Shown piece after piece: positions 12,654-33,073 of a stretch of 33,073 nucleotides of DNA. Source of the DNA: a virus. The position numbers and the translations under genes are program-made. The stretch is from positions 1 to 33,073 of the IMG/VR virus record IMGVR_UViG_3300042455_002620, one strand, 5' to 3'. Position 1 is the stretch's first letter, and each line of letters opens with the position of its first letter. The notes under the pieces were generated by a model. It saw only the letters and a list, made by a program, of their open reading frames with translations, was not told where the DNA came from and did no database searches.

Positions 12654-13679
12654 TCACACGTCGAGCGCCCGAAGCAGGCGCTCGGCGTTCTTGGGGAACG
12701 TGCGGTCGGCCACGGCGGCCCTGGCACGGTCAGCGGCGGACTGCCGCAGGTCTGGGTTCGCCTTCGCCCAGCGGAGCAGGTCGCCCAGCTCCTCGGGGCT
12801 GTCGAAGGTCGGCAGCATCGGGAACAGCTCGTCGGACTCGGGCCGGGACTGCCTGGCGAACCAGGTGCCGGTGGCGGCGAGCTCGACCTCTCGGGGCCCG
12901 ATGGCCCAGCCGTCGGCGCCGGAGTTGAGGCCGCCGTCGTCCTCGAGGCGGTAGAGGTTGAACGACGCCAGCGCCCCCTGGTAGAGGCCGACGGCGTCGA
13001 CGTTGTCGATGCACTCCGTCTCGCCGTGCACGAGCCGGTCGAGGAGCTGCGGCGAGGAGTGCTCCCAGTTGCCAGCGAGGACGAGGTCGAGCCCGGTCCA
13101 GTCGACCCGCTCCAAGAACCGCTGGCGCGACGGGTAGCCGGTGCCGACGAACGCGACGTCGCTCTGGCGGGTGCCGGGTCCCGGCTTGTGGACGTCGGGC
13201 CGGTAGCAGTGCGGCCCGTAGAACACCGGACAGTCGAGCGTGTCTTGGTAGAGCTCGAGGTTGACCGGGTCGTTGAGGACGACGGCGTCCCAGCCCCAGC
13301 GGGCCTTGTCCAGCGTGCGGGTCGTCTCGTAGGGCTCCTCGGTGGCGACGAGCACCACCTTGTGGCCCCTGTCGCGCATCATGTCGACGAGCAACGGATA
13401 CATGAAGAAGCCGCTGACGACTACGACCAGGTCGGGCCACCAGGCGTAGCACTCGGCGCGTATGTGGCCGGCGGCGAGCTGGGCGACCTGCTCCTCCTCG
13501 TAGGGCTGCACCCATGCGCCCGAGGCGTCCTGCTGGTGCGCCGTCGAGTACCACTGCAGCAGCGTGTCGAGCTCGAACAGGCGGGTCTCCACGCCGACGG
13601 CGGCGAGCCCTTCGGCCCAGCCCCGGTAGACGTCGGCCACCGAGAAGTTCGGGCCGGGTGCGACGACGAGCGCCCTCAC
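12654..13679 (-). CDS. Glycosyltransferase, GT-B fold, CgeB-like
   Basis: This 341-residue protein resembles CgeB-type GT-B glycosyltransferases. The first half has a Rossmann-like start (MRALVVAPGPNFS) and an EEPYETTR segment; the second half has SDVAFVGTGYPSRQ and LVLAGNW, then the donor-binding-like run NSGADGWAIGPREVELAATG, a DELFP segment and a final helix pair (FDSPEELGDLLRW and DRARAAVADR). It likely transfers a sugar from a nucleotide-sugar to a protein or surface polymer. It lies between a head-tail gene and the tail tube, an inserted position. GTG at 13679 overlaps the upstream stop (GTGA). Virion glycosylation is a plausible role. Confidence 0.85.
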   Translation of the reverse strand: MRALVVAPGPNFSVADVYRGWAEGLAAVGVETRLFELDTLLQWYSTAHQQDASGAWVQPYEEEQVAQLAAGHIRAECYAWWPDLVVVVSGFFMYPLLVDMMRDRGHKVVLVATEEPYETTRTLDKARWGWDAVVLNDPVNLELYQDTLDCPVFYGPHCYRPDVHKPGPGTRQSDVAFVGTGYPSRQRFLERVDWTGLDLVLAGNWEHSSPQLLDRLVHGETECIDNVDAVGLYQGALASFNLYRLEDDGGLNSGADGWAIGPREVELAATGTWFARQSRPESDELFPMLPTFDSPEELGDLLRWAKANPDLRQSAADRARAAVADRTFPKNAERLLRALDV

Positions 13680-15868: not shown

Positions 15869-16686
15869 CCGACGACCGGCTCCCGCCACCACACTGCGTG
15901 TACGACGACGGCGAGGAGCAGCCAGTGCGTCGGAACGACGCCGGCGGCTGCGAGGCAGACGACGGGCCCGGCGGCCATCTGGTAGAGCCGGACGGTGTCG
16001 GTGGCCACGACGAGCTGCCCGTAGGCGAGGCCGACGGTGGCGAACAGCTGCGGCGTCGGTGCGAGCAGTGCAGCTAGGCCGACCCCCCACGGGGCCACCA
16101 TGAACCAGGCGCTGCGCCACTGGCCCCGGTGGTGCTCGAGCGAGCTGCGCACCGGGTGGTCGTGCACCCGCTGCAGCAGCGGCTGTGCGGTGACCGGGTC
16201 GACCTCGTGCTTGCGGACGACGGCGGCGACGGCCGGGGCGACCAGGCCGACGAGGGCGAGGGGCGTCCACGCCCACAGCGCCACCCAGACCGGCATGGTC
16301 TCCTTGATGCACGCCGCCCAGACCACTAGGACGACGCCGATGACCGGCTGCCCGTTGGTGAAACAGGCGGCGGCCCAGATGCCGACGGCCATGGCGGGCA
16401 GGTCGACTCCGACTGGACGCACCGAGTGCGGCCCCCAGATGCCGGGCAGGGCCACGAGCAGCGCCGCAGCGGCCGCAGAGACCGCCCACGACGCTCCGGT
16501 GCCTCTGGCCCAGAACACGGTGCCGGAGGCCAGCAGCGGCCACGACAGGCCCCACACGGCCCACCAGAGCTTGAGGTCCTGACCGCACAGTGCCGGCAGC
16601 AGCCAGCGGAGGTGGAACGGCTTGGCGACCGGCTTGCCGTCGGCGGCAAGCCAGTAGCGCGCCGCGTCAGGCCCAAACGTTCTCAT
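15865..16686 (-). CDS. Polytopic membrane protein between two glycosyltransferases
   Basis: This 273-residue protein has about seven hydrophobic segments (roughly residues 38-58, 66-84, 95-111, 114-130, 132-158, 192-215, 236-265), with a Trp-rich flavour and a KET motif at about 128-130. It was not recognised. GT-C-like glycosyltransferase, flippase or lipid-linked sugar transporter are the best guesses. The ATG at 16686 overlaps the upstream gene by 20 bases; its leader is weak, so coupling is likely. A multi-span membrane protein inside the head gene cluster is unusual and suggests lipid-linked sugar use or host-surface modification rather than simple cytosolic virion glycosylation. Confidence 0.75.
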   Translation of the reverse strand: MRTFGPDAARYWLAADGKPVAKPFHLRWLLPALCGQDLKLWWAVWGLSWPLLASGTVFWARGTGASWAVSAAAAALLVALPGIWGPHSVRPVGVDLPAMAVGIWAAACFTNGQPVIGVVLVVWAACIKETMPVWVALWAWTPLALVGLVAPAVAAVVRKHEVDPVTAQPLLQRVHDHPVRSSLEHHRGQWRSAWFMVAPWGVGLAALLAPTPQLFATVGLAYGQLVVATDTVRLYQMAAGPVVCLAAAGVVPTHWLLLAVVVHAVWWREPVVG

Positions 16687-17476
16687 CGACCGTGGAGGTG
16701 TGGAGCTTGTCGACGTCGACCGGGTTGGTCCTGGTCTCCGACGGCCACCAGACCTTGGCGCCTTTGTGGTGTCCTACGTGTGCGGTTGTGTCGACGTAGA
16801 CCTTGTGGTCGGTGAGCTGCTGGACACGCAGGCAGAACGAGATGTCCTCGCCGAGCGCCCACTCCTTGCCGGTGATTGAGTTGACGACGTCGAAACCGAA
16901 CCAGGCGTTCTTGGCGCTGCCCGACTTCTCGCGCATCTCCTCGAGCACCGAGCGGTGCACCATGAGGCAGCCGGTGCCGGTAGCCGCGACCTCGCAGACG
17001 GTGCCGTCCGGCCAGTCGAGCAGCACCTGGGTGACGGTGTCGTCGTCGTGGGCGAACAGCGTGGTCAGCGGGCCGTTCTCGGTGACGATGACGCACAGGC
17101 CGCCGAGGACCCGCAGGTCCATCTGGGCGCAGCGGGCGACCATGCGGTGCATGAGCTCGGGCTCCCACACCATGTCGGAGTCCAGGAACCAGAGCCACTG
17201 CGCCTCGGCGTAGACCTCGTTGGTAAGGAACTCGTCGACCAGGCGGTTGCGCGCCTTGGCCAGGTTGGCCGTGGCCTCGACGCACAGGTAGTTGTGGAAC
17301 AGGCGCAGCTCGAGCGGGTTGGGCTGCTCGGGGCAGCCCATCTCCTCCCAGAGCCGGACGCTGCGCTCCCGGTCGTAGACGTCCATCTCGACCAGCGACC
17401 GCAGCCAGCGGCTGCTGATGTCGTGGCCGGTGCTCGGGAAGGCCACGACGACCTTGCCCACCAGCTCGTTGTTCAC
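16667..17476 (-). CDS. Glycosyltransferase, GT-A fold
   Basis: This 269-residue protein has a GT-A-like start (KVVVAFPSTGHDISSRWLRSL), the DxD motif FLDSDMVW at residues 97-104, a GTGCLMVHR segment and GEDISFCLR, the ED base motif, followed by a VGHHKGAKVW histidine that could complete the metal site. The GTG at 17476 has GGAGG upstream. It is the first gene after the major capsid, separated by a hairpin and short repeats, so its transcription may be set separately from the capsid. The substrate is unknown. Confidence 0.85.
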   Translation of the reverse strand: MNNELVGKVVVAFPSTGHDISSRWLRSLVEMDVYDRERSVRLWEEMGCPEQPNPLELRLFHNYLCVEATANLAKARNRLVDEFLTNEVYAEAQWLWFLDSDMVWEPELMHRMVARCAQMDLRVLGGLCVIVTENGPLTTLFAHDDDTVTQVLLDWPDGTVCEVAATGTGCLMVHRSVLEEMREKSGSAKNAWFGFDVVNSITGKEWALGEDISFCLRVQQLTDHKVYVDTTAHVGHHKGAKVWWPSETRTNPVDVDKLHTSTVDENVWA

Positions 17477-17573: not shown

Positions 17574-18923
17574 TCAGCTGAGGACCTGCTTGAAGCCAGT
17601 GGACATCAGCACGCAGGTTGCCGTGGGGTAGCGCCCGGCGGTGAATGCGCTGAAGCCGTAGGCCACCATGCGCACCGAGAGCTGGTCCGCGAGGACCTCC
17701 TCGAGCTCGAGGCCGACCGGCGCACCGGCGTCCTCCATGTGGAGCACGTCCTGGCGACGGGTGATGATGATGCGGTCCTCGTCGGTCGACGCACCCAGGT
17801 TGGTGGGGACGCCGGCGTCGATGACGACCGGGATGCCGGCGATGGAACCGACAGCCGCGTAGCCGGCAGCGGAGCCCGCACCGACGACGTTCTGGCCGGT
17901 GCCACCGACGACCTCGACCAGCGGGCGCTGGTTGCCGTCGCTCGCCGCGCACAGCCACGCCCAGCGGCGCGGGTGCATCACGATGAGGTCGGCCGCCGCG
18001 TAGCGGGCGCCGTTGACCTTGCCGATGCCGTTGTGGATCGCCGACACGAGCGAGGCGCCCGTGGTGCCGGTCCAGGCAGCCGTCTGCACCGAGGTGGTGT
18101 TCAGGATGCCCCAGTGGCCGCCGGCGGTGCCGTCGCCCGAGATGGCCGAGACGTTGGTCTTGGTCGCGTACTCGGCGAACAGGTCGGCGAGCAGGATCTC
18201 GGCGATGCCGGTGCCGCGCTCGACGGCCTGGCGGGAGACGACCTGCTGGCCGGCGAAGGTGCGCACGGGCACGACGAGGTCCGACTCGGCGAACGTGGTG
18301 TTCGACACGGCGGTGTTCTCGGTCGCCTGGGCGGCCACGGAGGTGCTGGTCGAGCCACGCGGGATGGTGATGTTCATGCCCGCCTCGGGGAGACCGATGT
18401 TGGTCACCGCCGACAGGAACGGACGGCCCGACTCGAGGTTCGGGGCGAACAGCTCGGTCAGGTACTGGGGCACCACGAGGCCGCCGAACGCACCGGTCGT
18501 GGACCGGTAGTCGATCTGCGACTCGCGCCGGTTGCGCTCGATGCGCTCGGCGGCGGCGGCGTCACGCTTCGCAGCGATGGCGTCGGCGAAGAAGTTGTGC
18601 TCGCCGTCGGGCCGGTAGGTGCGGGCCTCGGACACGACCGCGACGTGCTGGACGGCCTTGGCCAGGTCGGTGCGCAGCTCGGCTGCGGCCTCGTTGCGCT
18701 CGTTGAGCTCGGACATGTCAGCCTCCTGGGCCTTGAGAGCGTCGATGCGCTCGTCGATGGTGCGGAGCTCGGCGCGCGCGGCGTCGAACACCTCGGTCTC
18801 TTCGGGGGTGAGGTCGGTGCGGCCCTCGGCCTCGACTGCGTCGAGGATCTCGGTGACCTTCGCCTCGGCGCCGTCGCGCTCGTCGAGCGCAGCGGCGATC
18901 AGGGAGCGGATCTGCTCCAGCAT
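17574..18923 (-). CDS. Major capsid protein, HK97 fold
   Basis: This 449-residue protein has a long N-terminal coiled-coil delta domain (about residues 1-110, EQIRSLIAAALDERDG to the Ala/Glu helices), which serves as internal scaffold and is expected to be removed by the prohead protease. The HK97 core follows: TGAFGGLVVPQYLTELF at about 140-158, PFLSAVTNIGLPEAGMNI, the E-loop-like region, GDGTAGGHWGIL, and IVMHPRRWAWL (P domain helix and strand), ending with the SVRMVAYGFSAF A-domain strands. ATG at 18923 follows TAGGAGT. No separate scaffold gene is needed. It has the typical length of an HK97-type fusion (380-450). Confidence 0.95.
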   Translation of the reverse strand: MLEQIRSLIAAALDERDGAEAKVTEILDAVEAEGRTDLTPEETEVFDAARAELRTIDERIDALKAQEADMSELNERNEAAAELRTDLAKAVQHVAVVSEARTYRPDGEHNFFADAIAAKRDAAAAERIERNRRESQIDYRSTTGAFGGLVVPQYLTELFAPNLESGRPFLSAVTNIGLPEAGMNITIPRGSTSTSVAAQATENTAVSNTTFAESDLVVPVRTFAGQQVVSRQAVERGTGIAEILLADLFAEYATKTNVSAISGDGTAGGHWGILNTTSVQTAAWTGTTGASLVSAIHNGIGKVNGARYAAADLIVMHPRRWAWLCAASDGNQRPLVEVVGGTGQNVVGAGSAAGYAAVGSIAGIPVVIDAGVPTNLGASTDEDRIIITRRQDVLHMEDAGAPVGLELEEVLADQLSVRMVAYGFSAFTAGRYPTATCVLMSTGFKQVLS

Positions 18924-22652: not shown

Positions 22653-22862
22653 GGCCCTCCGTTGCAAGTTCTTGCAGTCGCCCGGCGGCCCGGCCGGTCG
22701 ACCTCGAGCGGCACCCGCTCAGACCCCTTTGTTTGCAAGGGTCTCGTCACGAACCTCGGGGAGAGAGTCCAGACGGTTGTCGGGCGGGGTCAAGGTGGGG
22801 GCCCGCGGTCAGAAACCGTGCGGCCCCCTGCAGGGTCTTGCAGGGCCCCCGAGGGGCGCCAG
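22653..22862. other. Intergenic region, candidate cos/packaging site
   Basis: This 210-base gap lies between the HNH nuclease and the terminase genes, where cos sites are found in HK97-like phages. It has a recurring heptamer: TTGCAAG at 22662-22668 (its first part in the neighbouring dyad), CTTGCAG at 22671-22677, TTGCAAG at 22733-22739 and CTTGCAG at 22837-22843. The first two form a 14-base dyad TGCAAG-TT-CTTGCA. There is a hairpin at 22721-22744 and a GGGGGCC/GGCCCCC pair (22797-22803, 22822-22828). No coding frame is supported. The repeats could be small-terminase binding sites. Confidence 0.45.
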
Positions 22863-23123
22863 TCACCAGGTGCGCGAGGTCTCGACCGTGCTCGAGGTCG
22901 GTCGGTTGGCACCGCGTCGGCTGTTGCACGAGCGGTGCGCCGGCCTCATGTTCAGCAGCGAGGTCGGGTGCCCACCGTCGATGAGCGGCACGACGTGGTC
23001 GGCGGTGTCGGCGCCGTCACGTCCGCAGATCCAACAGACCGTGGACTGCGACAGCAGCTGCGCACGCGCCTTGCGGTAGCCCCAGCTCTTGCGCAGGTTC
23101 GCTACGTCGGGACGGCTAGGCAT
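22863..23123 (-). CDS. HNH endonuclease (terminase-associated)
   Basis: This 86-residue protein has a compact HNH motif: CWICG, then TADHVVPLIDGG, then NMRPAHRSCNSRRG. The two CxxC-type pairs (WICGRDG and SCN region) bind a structural zinc, and the H-N-H residues the catalytic metal. HNH proteins next to terminase genes in HK97-like phages assist the terminase in specific cleavage at cos. The basic N-terminus (RPDVANLRKSWGYRKARAQL) likely contacts DNA. The ATG at 23123 overlaps the previous gene by 8 bases. Confidence 0.9.
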   Translation of the reverse strand: MPSRPDVANLRKSWGYRKARAQLLSQSTVCWICGRDGADTADHVVPLIDGGHPTSLLNMRPAHRSCNSRRGANRPTSSTVETSRTW

Positions 23124-23361
23124 CCAGGTACCTCACCTCGGTGACGCAGCTGGTCGGGATCACGATGCCGTTGGCAGCGTCGCCGTCCTCGCTGATCGAC
23201 GTGGCCAGCACGACTCGCTCGTCGTCCTCGGCGAGGAGGAACCCGACGGACTGGCAGGCGACGGGCCTCGAGGCTGCGACCTTCGCACTGGCGGTCCACT
23301 CCGGTGCGGCGTCGCATGCGTCGGTCCAGCGGACGAGTGCGGGGCGGGGACGCTTGGGCAT
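23116..23361 (-). CDS. Small unknown protein upstream of the HNH nuclease
   Basis: This 81-residue protein starts PKRPRPALVRWTDACDA, then has a beta-rich core (CQSVGFLLAEDDERVVLATSI) and ends IPTSCVTEVRYLD. The pattern of an aromatic acidic start, a SVGxL strand and an IPxxxVxEV end is seen in many small phage proteins without known function. Two ATGs lie side by side (23364 and 23361); the second is better spaced from GGAGG (six bases). It ends overlapping the HNH start. Function unknown. Confidence 0.75.
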   Translation of the reverse strand: MPKRPRPALVRWTDACDAAPEWTASAKVAASRPVACQSVGFLLAEDDERVVLATSISEDGDAANGIVIPTSCVTEVRYLDA

Positions 23362-23412
23362 CATCGGCCTCCGAACGCGACAGCGGCCGAGGTACAGACC
23401 TCGACCACTGAC

Positions 23413-23450
23413 GTGAACAGTACACCCGGCTGGGGACATCGTGGGGACAT
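23413..23450. promoter_or_regulatory. Dyad and 11-base tandem repeat upstream of the HNH module
   Basis: An imperfect dyad GTGAACAGTACAC (23413-23425) is followed by two copies of TGGGGACAT at 23431-23439 and 23442-23450, spaced 11 bases (about one helix turn). They occupy the short gap between the zinc-ribbon gene stop (23451) and the next leftward gene (23361). This could be an operator or a promoter for the packaging/late block. No clear -10/-35 pair was found. Confidence 0.45.
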
Positions 23451-23990
23451 TCACGCGCCCTCGTCGCTGGCGCCGTTGAACTCGGCCCGGTCGGGGTTGC
23501 CTGCACGCTGCCACGCCTTGTAGCACCGCTCGCAGTAGCCGGACTTGATCCGGTCGGACGCCGAGCCGGAAACCCACACGTTGCACCGCTGGCAGTGGCC
23601 AGCCCCTGGTGCCTCGGCCTCGGCGGGTGCGACGGTCTGCCCGACGATCGACGTGGCCAGGCGGAAGGCGTGGACAGTGGCGGACACGGCGCGCTCGAGC
23701 TCGGCGTGCAGGTCGTCGAGCATGCGGGCCATCTGCTCGTTCGCCATGACCGCGCCGAGGGTGGGGTCGCCGTGGCCGCCCGACCCGCCGCCCGGCTCGC
23801 CCATGCTCTGGGTCGGCAGGCCGTCGGACATGACGGTCCACGCCGACTTGTGCGCACGTTCGACCAGGCCGGACTCGAGGAACTGGCGCATGGTGGCGAA
23901 CACGTTGGCCGCTGCTGCCTGGTCGGCCTTGAGGGCCTGGCGCCGTGAGCGTCGGCCCAGGTCGAAGCGGATGACGTTGTCGGGGCTCAT
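23451..23990 (-). CDS. Zinc-ribbon protein of unknown function
   Basis: This 179-residue protein has a helical N-terminal half (SRRQALKADQAAAANVFATM, and DDLHAELERAV later) and a C-terminal four-cysteine zinc ribbon: C133-x2-C136 and C153-x2-C156. A glycine-rich linker (GEPGGGSGGHGD) separates two helical parts. It lies downstream of the putative origin and a small helical gene. A DNA- or RNA-binding accessory in replication or packaging is plausible, but not proven. ATG at 23990 follows AAGGAG. Confidence 0.75.
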   Translation of the reverse strand: MSPDNVIRFDLGRRSRRQALKADQAAAANVFATMRQFLESGLVERAHKSAWTVMSDGLPTQSMGEPGGGSGGHGDPTLGAVMANEQMARMLDDLHAELERAVSATVHAFRLATSIVGQTVAPAEAEAPGAGHCQRCNVWVSGSASDRIKSGYCERCYKAWQRAGNPDRAEFNGASDEGA

Positions 23991-24193
23991 GGGTTCTCCT
24001 TGGTGGCTGGGCTGAGCTCGTGGGCGAAGTCGGTGCAGATGACTGCGACGTTGGTGAACCACTCGGTGGGTGCACCGAGGGCGTTGGCGATGTGGTGGGC
24101 CAGGACGAGGTCGCCGGCCGCACGTCGGAGGATCGAGGCGAGGGCACCGACGAGGGCCTGCGGGTCGACGTCCTCGAGGTCGAGGTCGCTCAT
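23987..24193 (-). CDS. Small helical protein next to the origin region
   Basis: This 68-residue protein is acidic at its start (SDLDLEDVDPQALVGALASIL) and mostly helical. Its ATG at 24193 is immediately left of the first DnaA-like box, and its stop overlaps the next gene (ATGA). It was not recognised. The position next to the iteron region makes a role in replication control possible. Confidence 0.65.
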   Translation of the reverse strand: MSDLDLEDVDPQALVGALASILRRAAGDLVLAHHIANALGAPTEWFTNVAVICTDFAHELSPATKENP

Positions 24194-24197
24194 GGCG

Positions 24198-24206
24198 TTG
24201 TCCACA
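24198..24206 (+). promoter_or_regulatory. DnaA box TTGTCCACA
   Basis: TTGTCCACA is the form preferred by actinobacterial DnaA. It is the left-most site of the origin-like region. Confidence 0.65.
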
Positions 24207-24271
24207 GGAAGGTGGTGGGGCCACCGCGCAGTGGCCACCTCCCCTTTAGGGGGGGACCTTGCGCGGTGCGC

Positions 24272-24280
24272 GGTGGATAA
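24272..24280 (-). promoter_or_regulatory. DnaA-like box, reverse orientation
   Basis: The minus strand reads TTATCCACC, eight of nine bases of the classical TTATCCACA box. It pairs with the forward box at 24312 as a perfect 10-base inverted repeat. Confidence 0.55.
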
Positions 24281-24311
24281 CTTTTCCTTGCCAGTACTGG
24301 GATGCACCCAG

Positions 24312-24320
24312 TTATCCACA
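24312..24320 (+). promoter_or_regulatory. DnaA box TTATCCACA
   Basis: This is a perfect classical DnaA box, located between two groups of iterons. Confidence 0.7.
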
Positions 24321-24455
24321 GGTCTGGGACGACCGCGCAAGGTGACCCCTTGCGCGGTGCGCGCCTTGCGCGGTGGTGCTCAGATCCCAGTGCTGGGGCG
24401 GAATCGTCCGCGCAAGCACCGCGCACCGCGCAAGGGGTGCTTGCGCGGTGCGCGG

Positions 24456-25751
24456 TCACAGCCCCTCCAGGTCGTCGCCGAGCGGGTGCCAGACGTGGGT
24501 GCCACGGGCCCCGATCTCGCGCCGTACGAGGCCGTTGGCGAGCAGGATCTCGAGGTGCTTGTTGGCGGTGTTGGGACTCATCCCGGCCTTCTCGCCGGCG
24601 TCCTTAGAGGACCGGAAGATGCCGTGGACGTGCAGCGCGTCGAGCAGCGTCTGCTCGTAGGTGTCGCCGACCCTTTCGGCCTGGTCGGGCGTCCATTCGC
24701 GCCACCATCCGTCGGTGTCGAGGTGGACGCTGAAGTCGTCGATGGGGGCGCCACGGCGGAGGAACTTGAGGTCGGCGTACCGGCGTGCGTCACGGCGCTC
24801 GAGGCCGAGGTCGGCGGCCTTCTTGTCGGTGTAGTGGCGGACGATGGTGACGCGGTTGGCGGCCCAGTCGGCAAGGCGTGAGGCGCCCCGCCACATGTCT
24901 TCGGGCTCGGCGTAGTCACGGGCCTTGCCGAGGTGGTGGAAGATGATGAACGCGACGTTGTTGCGCATCCCGATCTCACGGAGCTTTGAGAGGACCGCTT
25001 CGACCTCGTCGTTGGAGTTCTCGTTGCCCTGGAGGAACACGGCCCACGGGTCGACGACGACGACCTCGATGCCGAGGGCTTCGATGGTGGCTTCGAGCTG
25101 GTCGTCGATGGTGGCGTCGAGGTACTCGTCGCTGAACGATTCGCCGTCGCCTTTGTAGGTGCGGCGGCGGCGCACGACCCTGAAACGCACCGGGTCGAAC
25201 GTCTCGGCGACCTCGGGCAGCTGGGCGTCGTCGAAGTCGAGCCCGTTGCCGTGGAGGATCTTCCAGCGCACGGCGGCCTGGGTCTCGTCGAGCTCGCCCT
25301 GCAGGTAGAGGACCTTGCGCTTTTTGGGGATGGGGAGGCGGCCGAAGAGGGGCCCGTCGCCGGTGGCGAGAAGGCTGGCGATGTTGTAGCCGAGCCAGGT
25401 CTTGCCGATGCCACGCTCGGCACCGACGACCATGAACTCGCCGGCGTTGAGGAGTCCTTCGATGACGGGGTCCTCGAGGGGCGGCGGGTCGGTGGCGTAG
25501 GTGCTGGTCCACCGGATGTTGAGGAGGCGCGGCTCGTCGGGCCCTTCGTCGTACTCGGGGTACAGCGACTGGAACAGGTCGTTGGTGACGGGGTCGCCAG
25601 GGCGGGGCCGGTCCCGCTCCTGGCGACCTTCGCGCTGCCGTCGGGCCCGCAGCTCGTCGATGCCCTCGATGTCGGGGCGCGGCGGCAACGGGTCCTCGGG
25701 CAGCGCATCGAACGCCGCCATCCAGTCGTCAGGGTCTTCGGTCACCGTCAC
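24456..25751 (-). CDS. RecA-fold replicative helicase / RepA-like ATPase with C-terminal winged helix
   Basis: This 431-residue ATPase has Walker A GAERGIGKTWLG at 110-121, Walker B VVVVDP at about 230-235, a HHLGK segment at 272-276 and the ELDE at 153-156, all typical of RepA/AAA_25-type hexameric helicases. The C-terminal ~90 residues form a winged-helix region (SPNTANKHLEILLANGLV), which may bind the iterons. The first ~70 residues are acidic and low-complexity. It stops directly at the last iteron (24455), so enzyme and origin are adjacent. The start is GTG 25751; GTG 25745 is an alternative. A role as the phage's own replication initiator-helicase is likely. Confidence 0.85.
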   Translation of the reverse strand: MTVTEDPDDWMAAFDALPEDPLPPRPDIEGIDELRARRQREGRQERDRPRPGDPVTNDLFQSLYPEYDEGPDEPRLLNIRWTSTYATDPPPLEDPVIEGLLNAGEFMVVGAERGIGKTWLGYNIASLLATGDGPLFGRLPIPKKRKVLYLQGELDETQAAVRWKILHGNGLDFDDAQLPEVAETFDPVRFRVVRRRRTYKGDGESFSDEYLDATIDDQLEATIEALGIEVVVVDPWAVFLQGNENSNDEVEAVLSKLREIGMRNNVAFIIFHHLGKARDYAEPEDMWRGASRLADWAANRVTIVRHYTDKKAADLGLERRDARRYADLKFLRRGAPIDDFSVHLDTDGWWREWTPDQAERVGDTYEQTLLDALHVHGIFRSSKDAGEKAGMSPNTANKHLEILLANGLVRREIGARGTHVWHPLGDDLEGL

Positions 25752-25756
25752 CCGGC

Positions 25757-26194
25757 TCAGAAGTCGAGGGCGTCGTCGGGGATGGCAGCAGCCGCAGCAG
25801 CGCCCACGACCGTGAAGGGCTTGCCCTCGCTGCTGCCGTCCTTGAACGCCTTGTACGTCTTCGACGGGTCCCGCTTTGTCGGGCGGTCCTCGACGTACAG
25901 GATGCGCACCAGGTAGCCGGGCTGGAACTTGTAGGCCTTCTCGCGCAGCAGGTTCTGCAGTGCGCTGGGGCCACCGTTGATGACGGCGTCGTCGTCACCC
26001 GTGGCCTGCACCTCAAACCAGCTCTCGCCGGTGCGGCGCATCTGTCGCACCACCAGCTTTGGTGCCGGGTGCCCGGCGAAGTCGGTGCCGCCGTCAAGCG
26101 AGAAGCTGACGACGACGCCGAACACCTCGTCGCCTGGCGTTTCCCACTTGACGAACGTGCCGCCGTCGTTGTCGTCCGACATGAAGTCGTCCAT
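25757..26194 (-). CDS. Putative single-strand DNA-binding protein
   Basis: This 145-residue protein has a beta-rich core (FVKWETPGDEVFGVVVSFS; YLVRILYVEDRP), an Ala-rich linker and a strongly acidic, aromatic-ended C-terminal tip (IPDDALDF). The tip is like the peptide by which bacterial SSBs recruit partner proteins. The fold looks like an OB-fold, but no SSB family motif is certain. It lies between the helicase and the nuclease. ATG at 26194 follows GGAAGGA. A recombination-associated OB protein is an alternative. Confidence 0.6.
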   Translation of the reverse strand: MDDFMSDDNDGGTFVKWETPGDEVFGVVVSFSLDGGTDFAGHPAPKLVVRQMRRTGESWFEVQATGDDDAVINGGPSALQNLLREKAYKFQPGYLVRILYVEDRPTKRDPSKTYKAFKDGSSEGKPFTVVGAAAAAAIPDDALDF

Positions 26195-26249
26195 CTGTCT
26201 GTCCTTCCGTTGTCTGTCTGTTGTTTCCGGTCGGCCGGTCGGCCGGCGG

Positions 26250-26474
26250 TCAGGTGTCCGTGCGGTAGAGCTGGCGCTCCATCCGGTCACGGTCGGTCTC
26301 TGCGGCGCGACGTAGGCCGTCGTGGCGCACGACCTCGGCCTTCAGGCGGTCGCACTCGGCGCCGAGCGCGTTGAGCTGCTCGACCAGGCGCTTGACGTCG
26401 CCGTTGGCGAGCGTCACGGTCCCCTGGTCGGGCAGTGCGTCGGCGTAGGCCGTCCAGTACGGCGACGGGTTCAC
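26250..26474 (-). CDS. Small coiled-coil protein
   Basis: This 74-residue protein is mostly one charged helix: VKRLVEQLNALGAECDRLKAEV and RRAAETDRDRMERQL show heptad patterns. GTG at 26474 overlaps the upstream stop (GTGA). It was not recognised. The gap between its stop and the SSB-like gene contains short repeats (TGTCTGTC and GTCGGCCG units) without clear function. Confidence 0.65.
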   Translation of the reverse strand: MNPSPYWTAYADALPDQGTVTLANGDVKRLVEQLNALGAECDRLKAEVVRHDGLRRAAETDRDRMERQLYRTDT

Positions 26475-32911: not shown

Positions 32912-33073
32912 AGGGGATACGTCCCCCGAGGAAGGAAGAACTCATGCAAGACCTGACCCTGTCAGAGGTCGTCCCCTTGTGGATCACGGCGCAGAGCTAC
33001 GCGCCGACGAGCCGCAAGCTGCGCGAGCTGCAGGCGCGTGACTTCGTCGCCGTCGTCGGCGACGTGAAGCCCG
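32912..33073. repeat. Right copy of the end repeat
   Basis: Identical to 1-162 apart from C at 32943 and C at 32947. It carries the integrase leader, ATG and first 43 codons. It marks the closing point of the circle. Confidence 0.9.
32944..33073 (+). CDS. int: Integrase start, partial second copy
   Basis: The first 43 codons of the integrase are repeated here, cut by the end of the window. Codon 2 is CAA (Gln) instead of GAA (Glu) in the left copy; all others are the same. This is the same gene seen again through circular closure and should be merged with 33-800. Confidence 0.85.
   Translation, partial: MQDLTLSEVVPLWITAQSYAPTSRKLRELQARDFVAVVGDVKP

Follow-up and report, generated by a model that had tools for sequence, protein, structure and literature searches.

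Genes and features at the locus

The window, the whole stretch of DNA analysed here, is a 33,073-base IMG/VR virus record with 60-73% GC that belongs to an HK97-type siphophage. Its two ends (1-162 and 32912-33073) overlap over 162 bases at 99% identity, so the record is essentially a circular assembly. Two mismatches in this overlap, close to where the integrase gene begins (ACTGATGGAAGAC versus ACTCATGCAAGAC), are slight strain variation. Structural genes identified in the record comprise the terminase, portal, head protease and major head protein, and two glycosyltransferase-like genes (12654-13679 and 16667-17476) lie inside the structural block. The replication block holds an exonuclease, WhiB, a RusA resolvase and an AAA_25 helicase. 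The tyrosine integrase is short, apparently without an N-terminal arm-binding domain, and is encoded on the plus strand; the minus strand carries the remaining identified genes. Terminase relatives come mostly from Actinomycetota genomes; one contig with a 58% identical terminase (L229) was deposited as a Rhodobacteraceae MAG and is likely a mis-binned actinophage contig.

The genome ends of the virion can be placed from the contig ends of relatives. Four independent contigs with related terminases (L128, L129, L130 and L133) all start at window position 22777, and G005, a linear relative, has its right end at 22789, marking what are, judged from these ends, the physical virion ends. Eleven bases, TGTCGGGCGGG, are missing on both sides of the junction in relatives, as expected of a 3' overhang, which suggests a cos overhang of 11 nt at the 3' end.

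Table 1. Positions of genes, repeats and other features in the window
Feature	Position	Strand	Basis or remark
Tyrosine integrase, 255 aa	33-800	+	domain scan
Virion genome ends (cos), putative	22777-22789	.	contig ends of relatives; 1.4 kb from array
179-aa conserved gene, C-x2-C motifs	23451-23990	-	conserved in G005 and G015
68-aa conserved gene following array	23987-24193	-	start is edge of exchanged cassette
Iteron array, proposed replication origin	24194-24455	.	non-coding gap, repeat clustering
DnaA box, exact consensus TTGTCCACA	24198-24206	+	motif search
C-rich/TAAA/G-rich element CCCCTAAAGGGG	24241-24252	-	near far end of array
Iteron CTTGCGCGG	24258-24266	+	exact copy; degenerate unit GTGCGCGG next
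DnaA box, near match TTATCCACC	24272-24280	-	inverted partner of 24312 box
Most AT-rich 40-mer of 23-26 kb	24276-24315	.	22/40 AT
Palindrome CCAGTACTGG	24291-24300	.	inverted-pair partner CCAGTGCTGG at 24387-24396
DnaA box, exact TTATCCACA	24312-24320	+	motif search
Iteron CTTGCGCGG	24333-24341	-	exact copy
Iteron CTTGCGCGG	24349-24357	+	exact copy
Iteron CTTGCGCGG	24365-24373	+	exact copy
Iteron CTTGCGCGG	24408-24416	-	exact copy
Iteron CTTGCGCGG	24426-24434	-	exact copy
Iteron CTTGCGCGG	24440-24448	+	exact copy; in hairpin arm 24440-24456
AAA_25 RecA-fold helicase, 431 aa, proposed initiator	24456-25751	-	family scan
Predicted C-terminal winged-helix domain, helicase residues 355-431	24459-24689	-	structure prediction
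177-aa uncharacterised gene	25757-26290		flanks helicase

The repeat array behind the helicase gene

An iteron array lies directly downstream of the helicase gene, in the 262 bases between the helicase stop codon (TGA, 24458-24456, minus strand) and the next ATG at 24193. A coding reading of this gap was rejected because its 89-aa frame (24190-24459, minus strand) has a low GC3, 0.66 against 0.88-0.92 in the neighbouring genes, and bears no coding signature. The sequence CTTGCGCGG occurs exactly seven times in the 33-kb record, four times on the plus and three times on the minus strand, and every copy lies within 24258-24448; shuffled sequences contain a mean of 0.74 copies, and none of 100 reaches seven. 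Of the 13 occurrences of a shorter core, GCGCGGT/ACCGCGC, in the 33 kb, ten are in the gap. The gap has a repeat-pair score of 131; scores reach no more than 13 in 1000 simulations of local composition and no more than 22 at any place in 60 simulated genomes. The gap thus shows non-random clustering of short repeats, as expected of an iteron-type origin.

DnaA boxes accompany the iterons. Only two exact TTNTCCACA sites exist in the 33 kb (0.29 expected), both in the gap, where they flank the iterons or stand among them. A perfect 10-base inverted pair, GTGGATAACT/AGTTATCCAC, lies at 24273-24282 and 24310-24319. The most AT-rich segment, only 55% AT, sits between the inverted DnaA boxes and may be the unwinding element. 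CCCCTAAAGGGG occupies a position like that of a hairpin in Streptomyces arrays (CCCC-TTTAGAA or CTAAAG-GGGG); its own hairpin is weak. These findings bear out the description in the earlier note, which had listed seven iterons in both orientations, a 262-base non-coding gap, the perfect inverted pair, a second one formed by CCAGTACTGG and CCAGTGCTGG, and two good DnaA boxes with one near match. The note had also placed the end of the repeats right before the helicase stop, and the unit found there is a degenerate one, GTGCGCGG at 24448-24455, whose last base immediately precedes the stop codon.

A 17-bp perfect inverted repeat (arms 24418-24434 and 24440-24456, 5-nt loop) touches the helicase stop codon and is predicted to fold into a hairpin of -26.8 kcal/mol (z -7.9). 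Such a hairpin could end transcription, and the CCAGTACTGG palindromes resemble operator sites that a repressor of the operon might bind. That the gap is a terminator or regulatory element of this kind is nevertheless improbable: no T-run follows the hairpin, and a terminator needs neither ten repeats over 262 bp nor DnaA boxes. The comparisons below, in which the repeat sequence is replaced in step with the helicase and arrays lie within coding sequence, add to the case against it.

The helicase

The helicase matches only AAA_25/DnaB-like families, among which no sequence match to SaPI Rep or Cch2 was seen; the DnaB-like and RepA-like labels of these helicases are family names, not functional assignments. 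No primase domain was found here. Its last 77 residues are confidently predicted, from a single sequence, to form a winged helix (pLDDT 83), so that a C-terminal DNA-binding domain is probably present. The region has sub-threshold Pfam matches to HTH_20 and MarR-like families, and its structural neighbours, none below an E value of 0.001, include MarR, Z-alpha and the centromere-binding AspA. The AlphaFold model of the whole helicase (pLDDT 46) is too poor for use. No close relatives of the helicase were found in the viral contigs, species genomes, plasmids and 397 Actinomycetota genomes searched; the best matches, at 24-25% identity, are in two phages without arrays.

Exchange of helicase and array in close relatives

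Two relatives, G005 and G015, place a different array at the same position. The complete, linear genome of G005 (34,350 bp) has the gene order of the window (helicase, 68-aa gene, 179-aa gene, HNH, end). It encodes a distantly related AAA_25 helicase, and the 3' end of the helicase gene bears another array, with the iteron GGACGCG. G015 is 87% identical to the window at the DNA level over 23115-24193, and the homology ends exactly at the ATG next to the array; beyond it, G015 has the end of a G005-type helicase and a third iteron, CGAGCGCGG. A break located exactly at the array edge indicates that the helicase gene and its array are swapped together, as a single cassette. The G015 array ranks first among the repeat clusters of its record, and the G005 array is second to one cluster; neither is equalled in any of 1000 simulations. 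A search of viral contigs with a 15-mer and an inverted-pair pattern found no second CTTGCGCGG array, only isolated matches. The conservation of the iterons in relatives, which the earlier note had proposed as a check, therefore fails for the sequence CTTGCGCGG and holds for the array and its position behind the helicase.

The G005 and G015 arrays (L147, about 18500-18535; L151, about 520-560) differ in their iterons yet have one stretch, GTGCGTCTCACGTAGTGGACGCACCGGCCGGTCC, unchanged in common; it contains a GTGCGTC/GACGCAC inverted repeat. Their helicases end in acidic tails, DDDEDIFG in the G005 type (L147, 18555-18578) and DDEDPFE in the G015 type (L151, before 602), that resemble the SSB C-terminal peptide.

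The same comparison bears on which protein reads the iterons. In lambda (O/P) and RSF1010 (RepC/RepA), the helicase is loaded through protein contact. An origin of that design, whose iterons are bound by another protein from the phage or the host (DnaA alone, or a small protein encoded in the replication operon), is rather unlikely here. It would be in keeping with the DnaA boxes and with the uncharacterised genes around the helicase, the 177-aa gene on one side and the 68-aa and 179-aa genes past the array. No homologue of RSF1010 RepC or RepB was seen in the window. G015 has the 68-aa gene almost without change, and the 179-aa protein is 49% identical to its G005 and 92% to its G015 counterpart, while the iterons change completely; these proteins are thus unlikely iteron readers. 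A separate initiator may be encoded elsewhere, but it is the helicase and the array that change in step.

Arrays in mu1/6-type phages and integrative elements

Arrays behind helicase genes extend well beyond these relatives. The G005 helicase leads to gp21 of Streptomyces phage mu1/6 (36.6% identity), whose gene end carries ACCTGCCC iterons in both orientations; these form the top repeat cluster of the 38-kb genome (0/1000 simulations). The top local repeat cluster falls at the 3' end of the helicase gene in 19/19 mu1/6-type genes (15/15 in viral contigs and 4/4 in Streptomyces genomes) and in 10 of 12 helicase genes from integrative elements, compared with none of the ten chromosomal dnaB controls from the same search. 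Besides G005, G015 and mu1/6, about 30 more phages and integrative elements share this placement. Iterons of the mu1/6-type arrays include ACCTCCCC, GGTTCCCC, ACGTTCCC, ACGTTTCC and CCTGTCCC. A second family, in Streptomyces integrative elements, pairs a DnaB-N and AAA_25 helicase with a non-coding array (iteron roughly CGNNCACGC) that begins right behind the stop codon, as in the window. The arrays commonly run from forward iterons through a centre to reverse iterons, many with a C-rich TAAA G-rich hairpin. Of the central CAGGTC motif of the Streptomyces arrays, the window has only a reversed, possibly chance, match. Two of the Streptomyces elements (L279 and L280) combine a tyrosine integrase with the helicase/iteron replicon; L279 also has a relaxase, and no rolling-circle Rep was seen among the scanned genes of either.

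The array lies inside the coding region in mu1/6-type genes, where a terminator would cut the protein. GC3 drops over the overlap from 0.87-0.95 to 0.66-0.76 and mostly recovers afterwards, which points to constraint on the DNA rather than on the protein. No exact DnaA box occurs in the mu1/6-type or integrative-element arrays examined, making the boxes an auxiliary feature. The single exact DnaA box of the G005 genome is also at the array edge and, together with those of the window, suggests a helper role of host DnaA in this branch.

The pairing of helicase and array is not universal. The exceptions include Gaia and Omegavirus helicases: mycobacteriophages Gaia, Redno2, Thibault, LittleE and WXIN and Arthrobacter phage ArV2 have no array at the helicase gene end, so the helicase does not require one. 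More distant terminase relatives (L231-L248) were rejected as comparators, as they have different replication modules and are uninformative. Strong, unrelated repeat clusters lie upstream of the terminase in Yinghuangia and Streptomyces prophages (L239, 4501-4750, CCGTTCCG; L237, 4951-5200, CGCCCCAC) and are possibly origins of other replication modules.

Interpretation as a probable replication origin

The gap is very probably a phage replication origin, as the earlier note had proposed. The case is strong because sequence-divergent arrays keep their position behind the same helicase class and because each array is swapped along with its helicase gene as a cassette. The simplest model that emerges from the comparison is an initiator helicase that recruits itself to iterons at the end of its own gene. 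Its predicted winged helix would bind the CTTGCGCGG iterons in both orientations, and helicase rings would assemble on the array. From the boxes at the flank and in the inverted pair, host DnaA may help to open the AT-rich centre. The loaded helicase would then drive theta replication, presumably bidirectional, of the cos-circularised genome. The GC-skew switch that characterises chromosome-type bidirectional origins is absent near 24.3 kb (rank 0.29), a check on which the earlier expectation was not borne out.

Nor is the suggested episomal prophage state favoured. The record encodes a tyrosine integrase, and no ParA/ParB pair appears among the proteins scanned, which include only part of the small ORFs; replication of the lytic or induced phage is therefore the likelier role of the array. 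For the same reasons it is highly improbable that the array is instead a centromere (parS-like) or other partition site of an episomal prophage. Iteron arrays do serve as centromeres too, the winged helix counts AspA among its structural neighbours, and in mycobacteriophages Miko and Rachaly repA is followed by a parS locus that contains direct repeats (PMC7157519); the integrase and the lack of a ParA or ParB domain in the scanned proteins speak against it.

A broader proposal, to which we give an even chance, is that an undescribed class of replicon is common to temperate phages and integrative elements of actinobacteria. Its initiator would be a RecA-fold helicase of the AAA_25 type, in many cases with a DnaB N-terminal domain as well, and would load itself at an iteron origin. 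This origin would occupy the 3' end of the helicase gene and in some cases fall within the coding sequence. Helicase and iteron would diversify and swap together, giving specificity groups like those of plasmid incompatibility. To our knowledge, the lytic origins of most actinophages are unmapped. Searching the 3' end of AAA_25 helicase genes for the strongest repeat cluster yields predicted origins for dozens of phages and integrative elements, among them the isolated phage mu1/6. Should the helicase recognise its own iterons, the many naturally paired helicase and iteron variants would be a ready set for studies of helicase self-loading and could find use in origin-decoy phage resistance and actinobacterial vectors.

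Comparison with known systems

A helicase with a downstream iteron origin is an already known kind of replicon; a RecA-fold version common to actinophages and integrative elements, with cassette-swapped iterons, was not found in the open-licence literature searched. RSF1010 resembles the window in combining a RecA-fold RepA-type helicase with an iteron origin (oriV) and differs in that a separate protein, RepC, binds the iterons. Extrachromosomal mycobacterial prophages also have an actinophage locus with a RepA-like protein; they are maintained as plasmids through RepA-like replication loci and parABS, and no repeated motifs were identified near repA (PMC7157519). The Sfi21 origin of Streptococcus thermophilus is, like the gap, short, non-coding and within the replication module of a temperate siphophage, and its action as a decoy origin (PER) has been shown (PMC6356513, citing Foley 1998); host and sequence are unrelated to those of the window.

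Closer parallels join DNA binding to the helicase. The Sulfolobus plasmid pRN1 encodes a replication protein with a C-terminal winged helix and has its origin immediately 3' of the gene, a placement also proposed for some phages (PMC4234260); unlike the window, it has a 100-nt stem-loop without iterons as its origin and uses a prim-pol with an SF3 helicase. In P4 alpha, a winged helix binds origin repeats and the same protein unwinds the DNA (PMC4234260), but P4 alpha additionally has a Toprim primase, and its helicase is of another kind; no primase domain was found here. The C-terminal domain of SaPI Rep is reported to recognise iterons directly downstream of its own gene (PMC7581432, citing Ubeda 2007), and the same has been shown biochemically for SCCmec Cch2 (PMC7581432). 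Both share with the window an initiator helicase with iterons straight after its gene; the window differs in its AAA_25/RecA-fold motor, its actinobacterial hosts and the presence of DnaA boxes.
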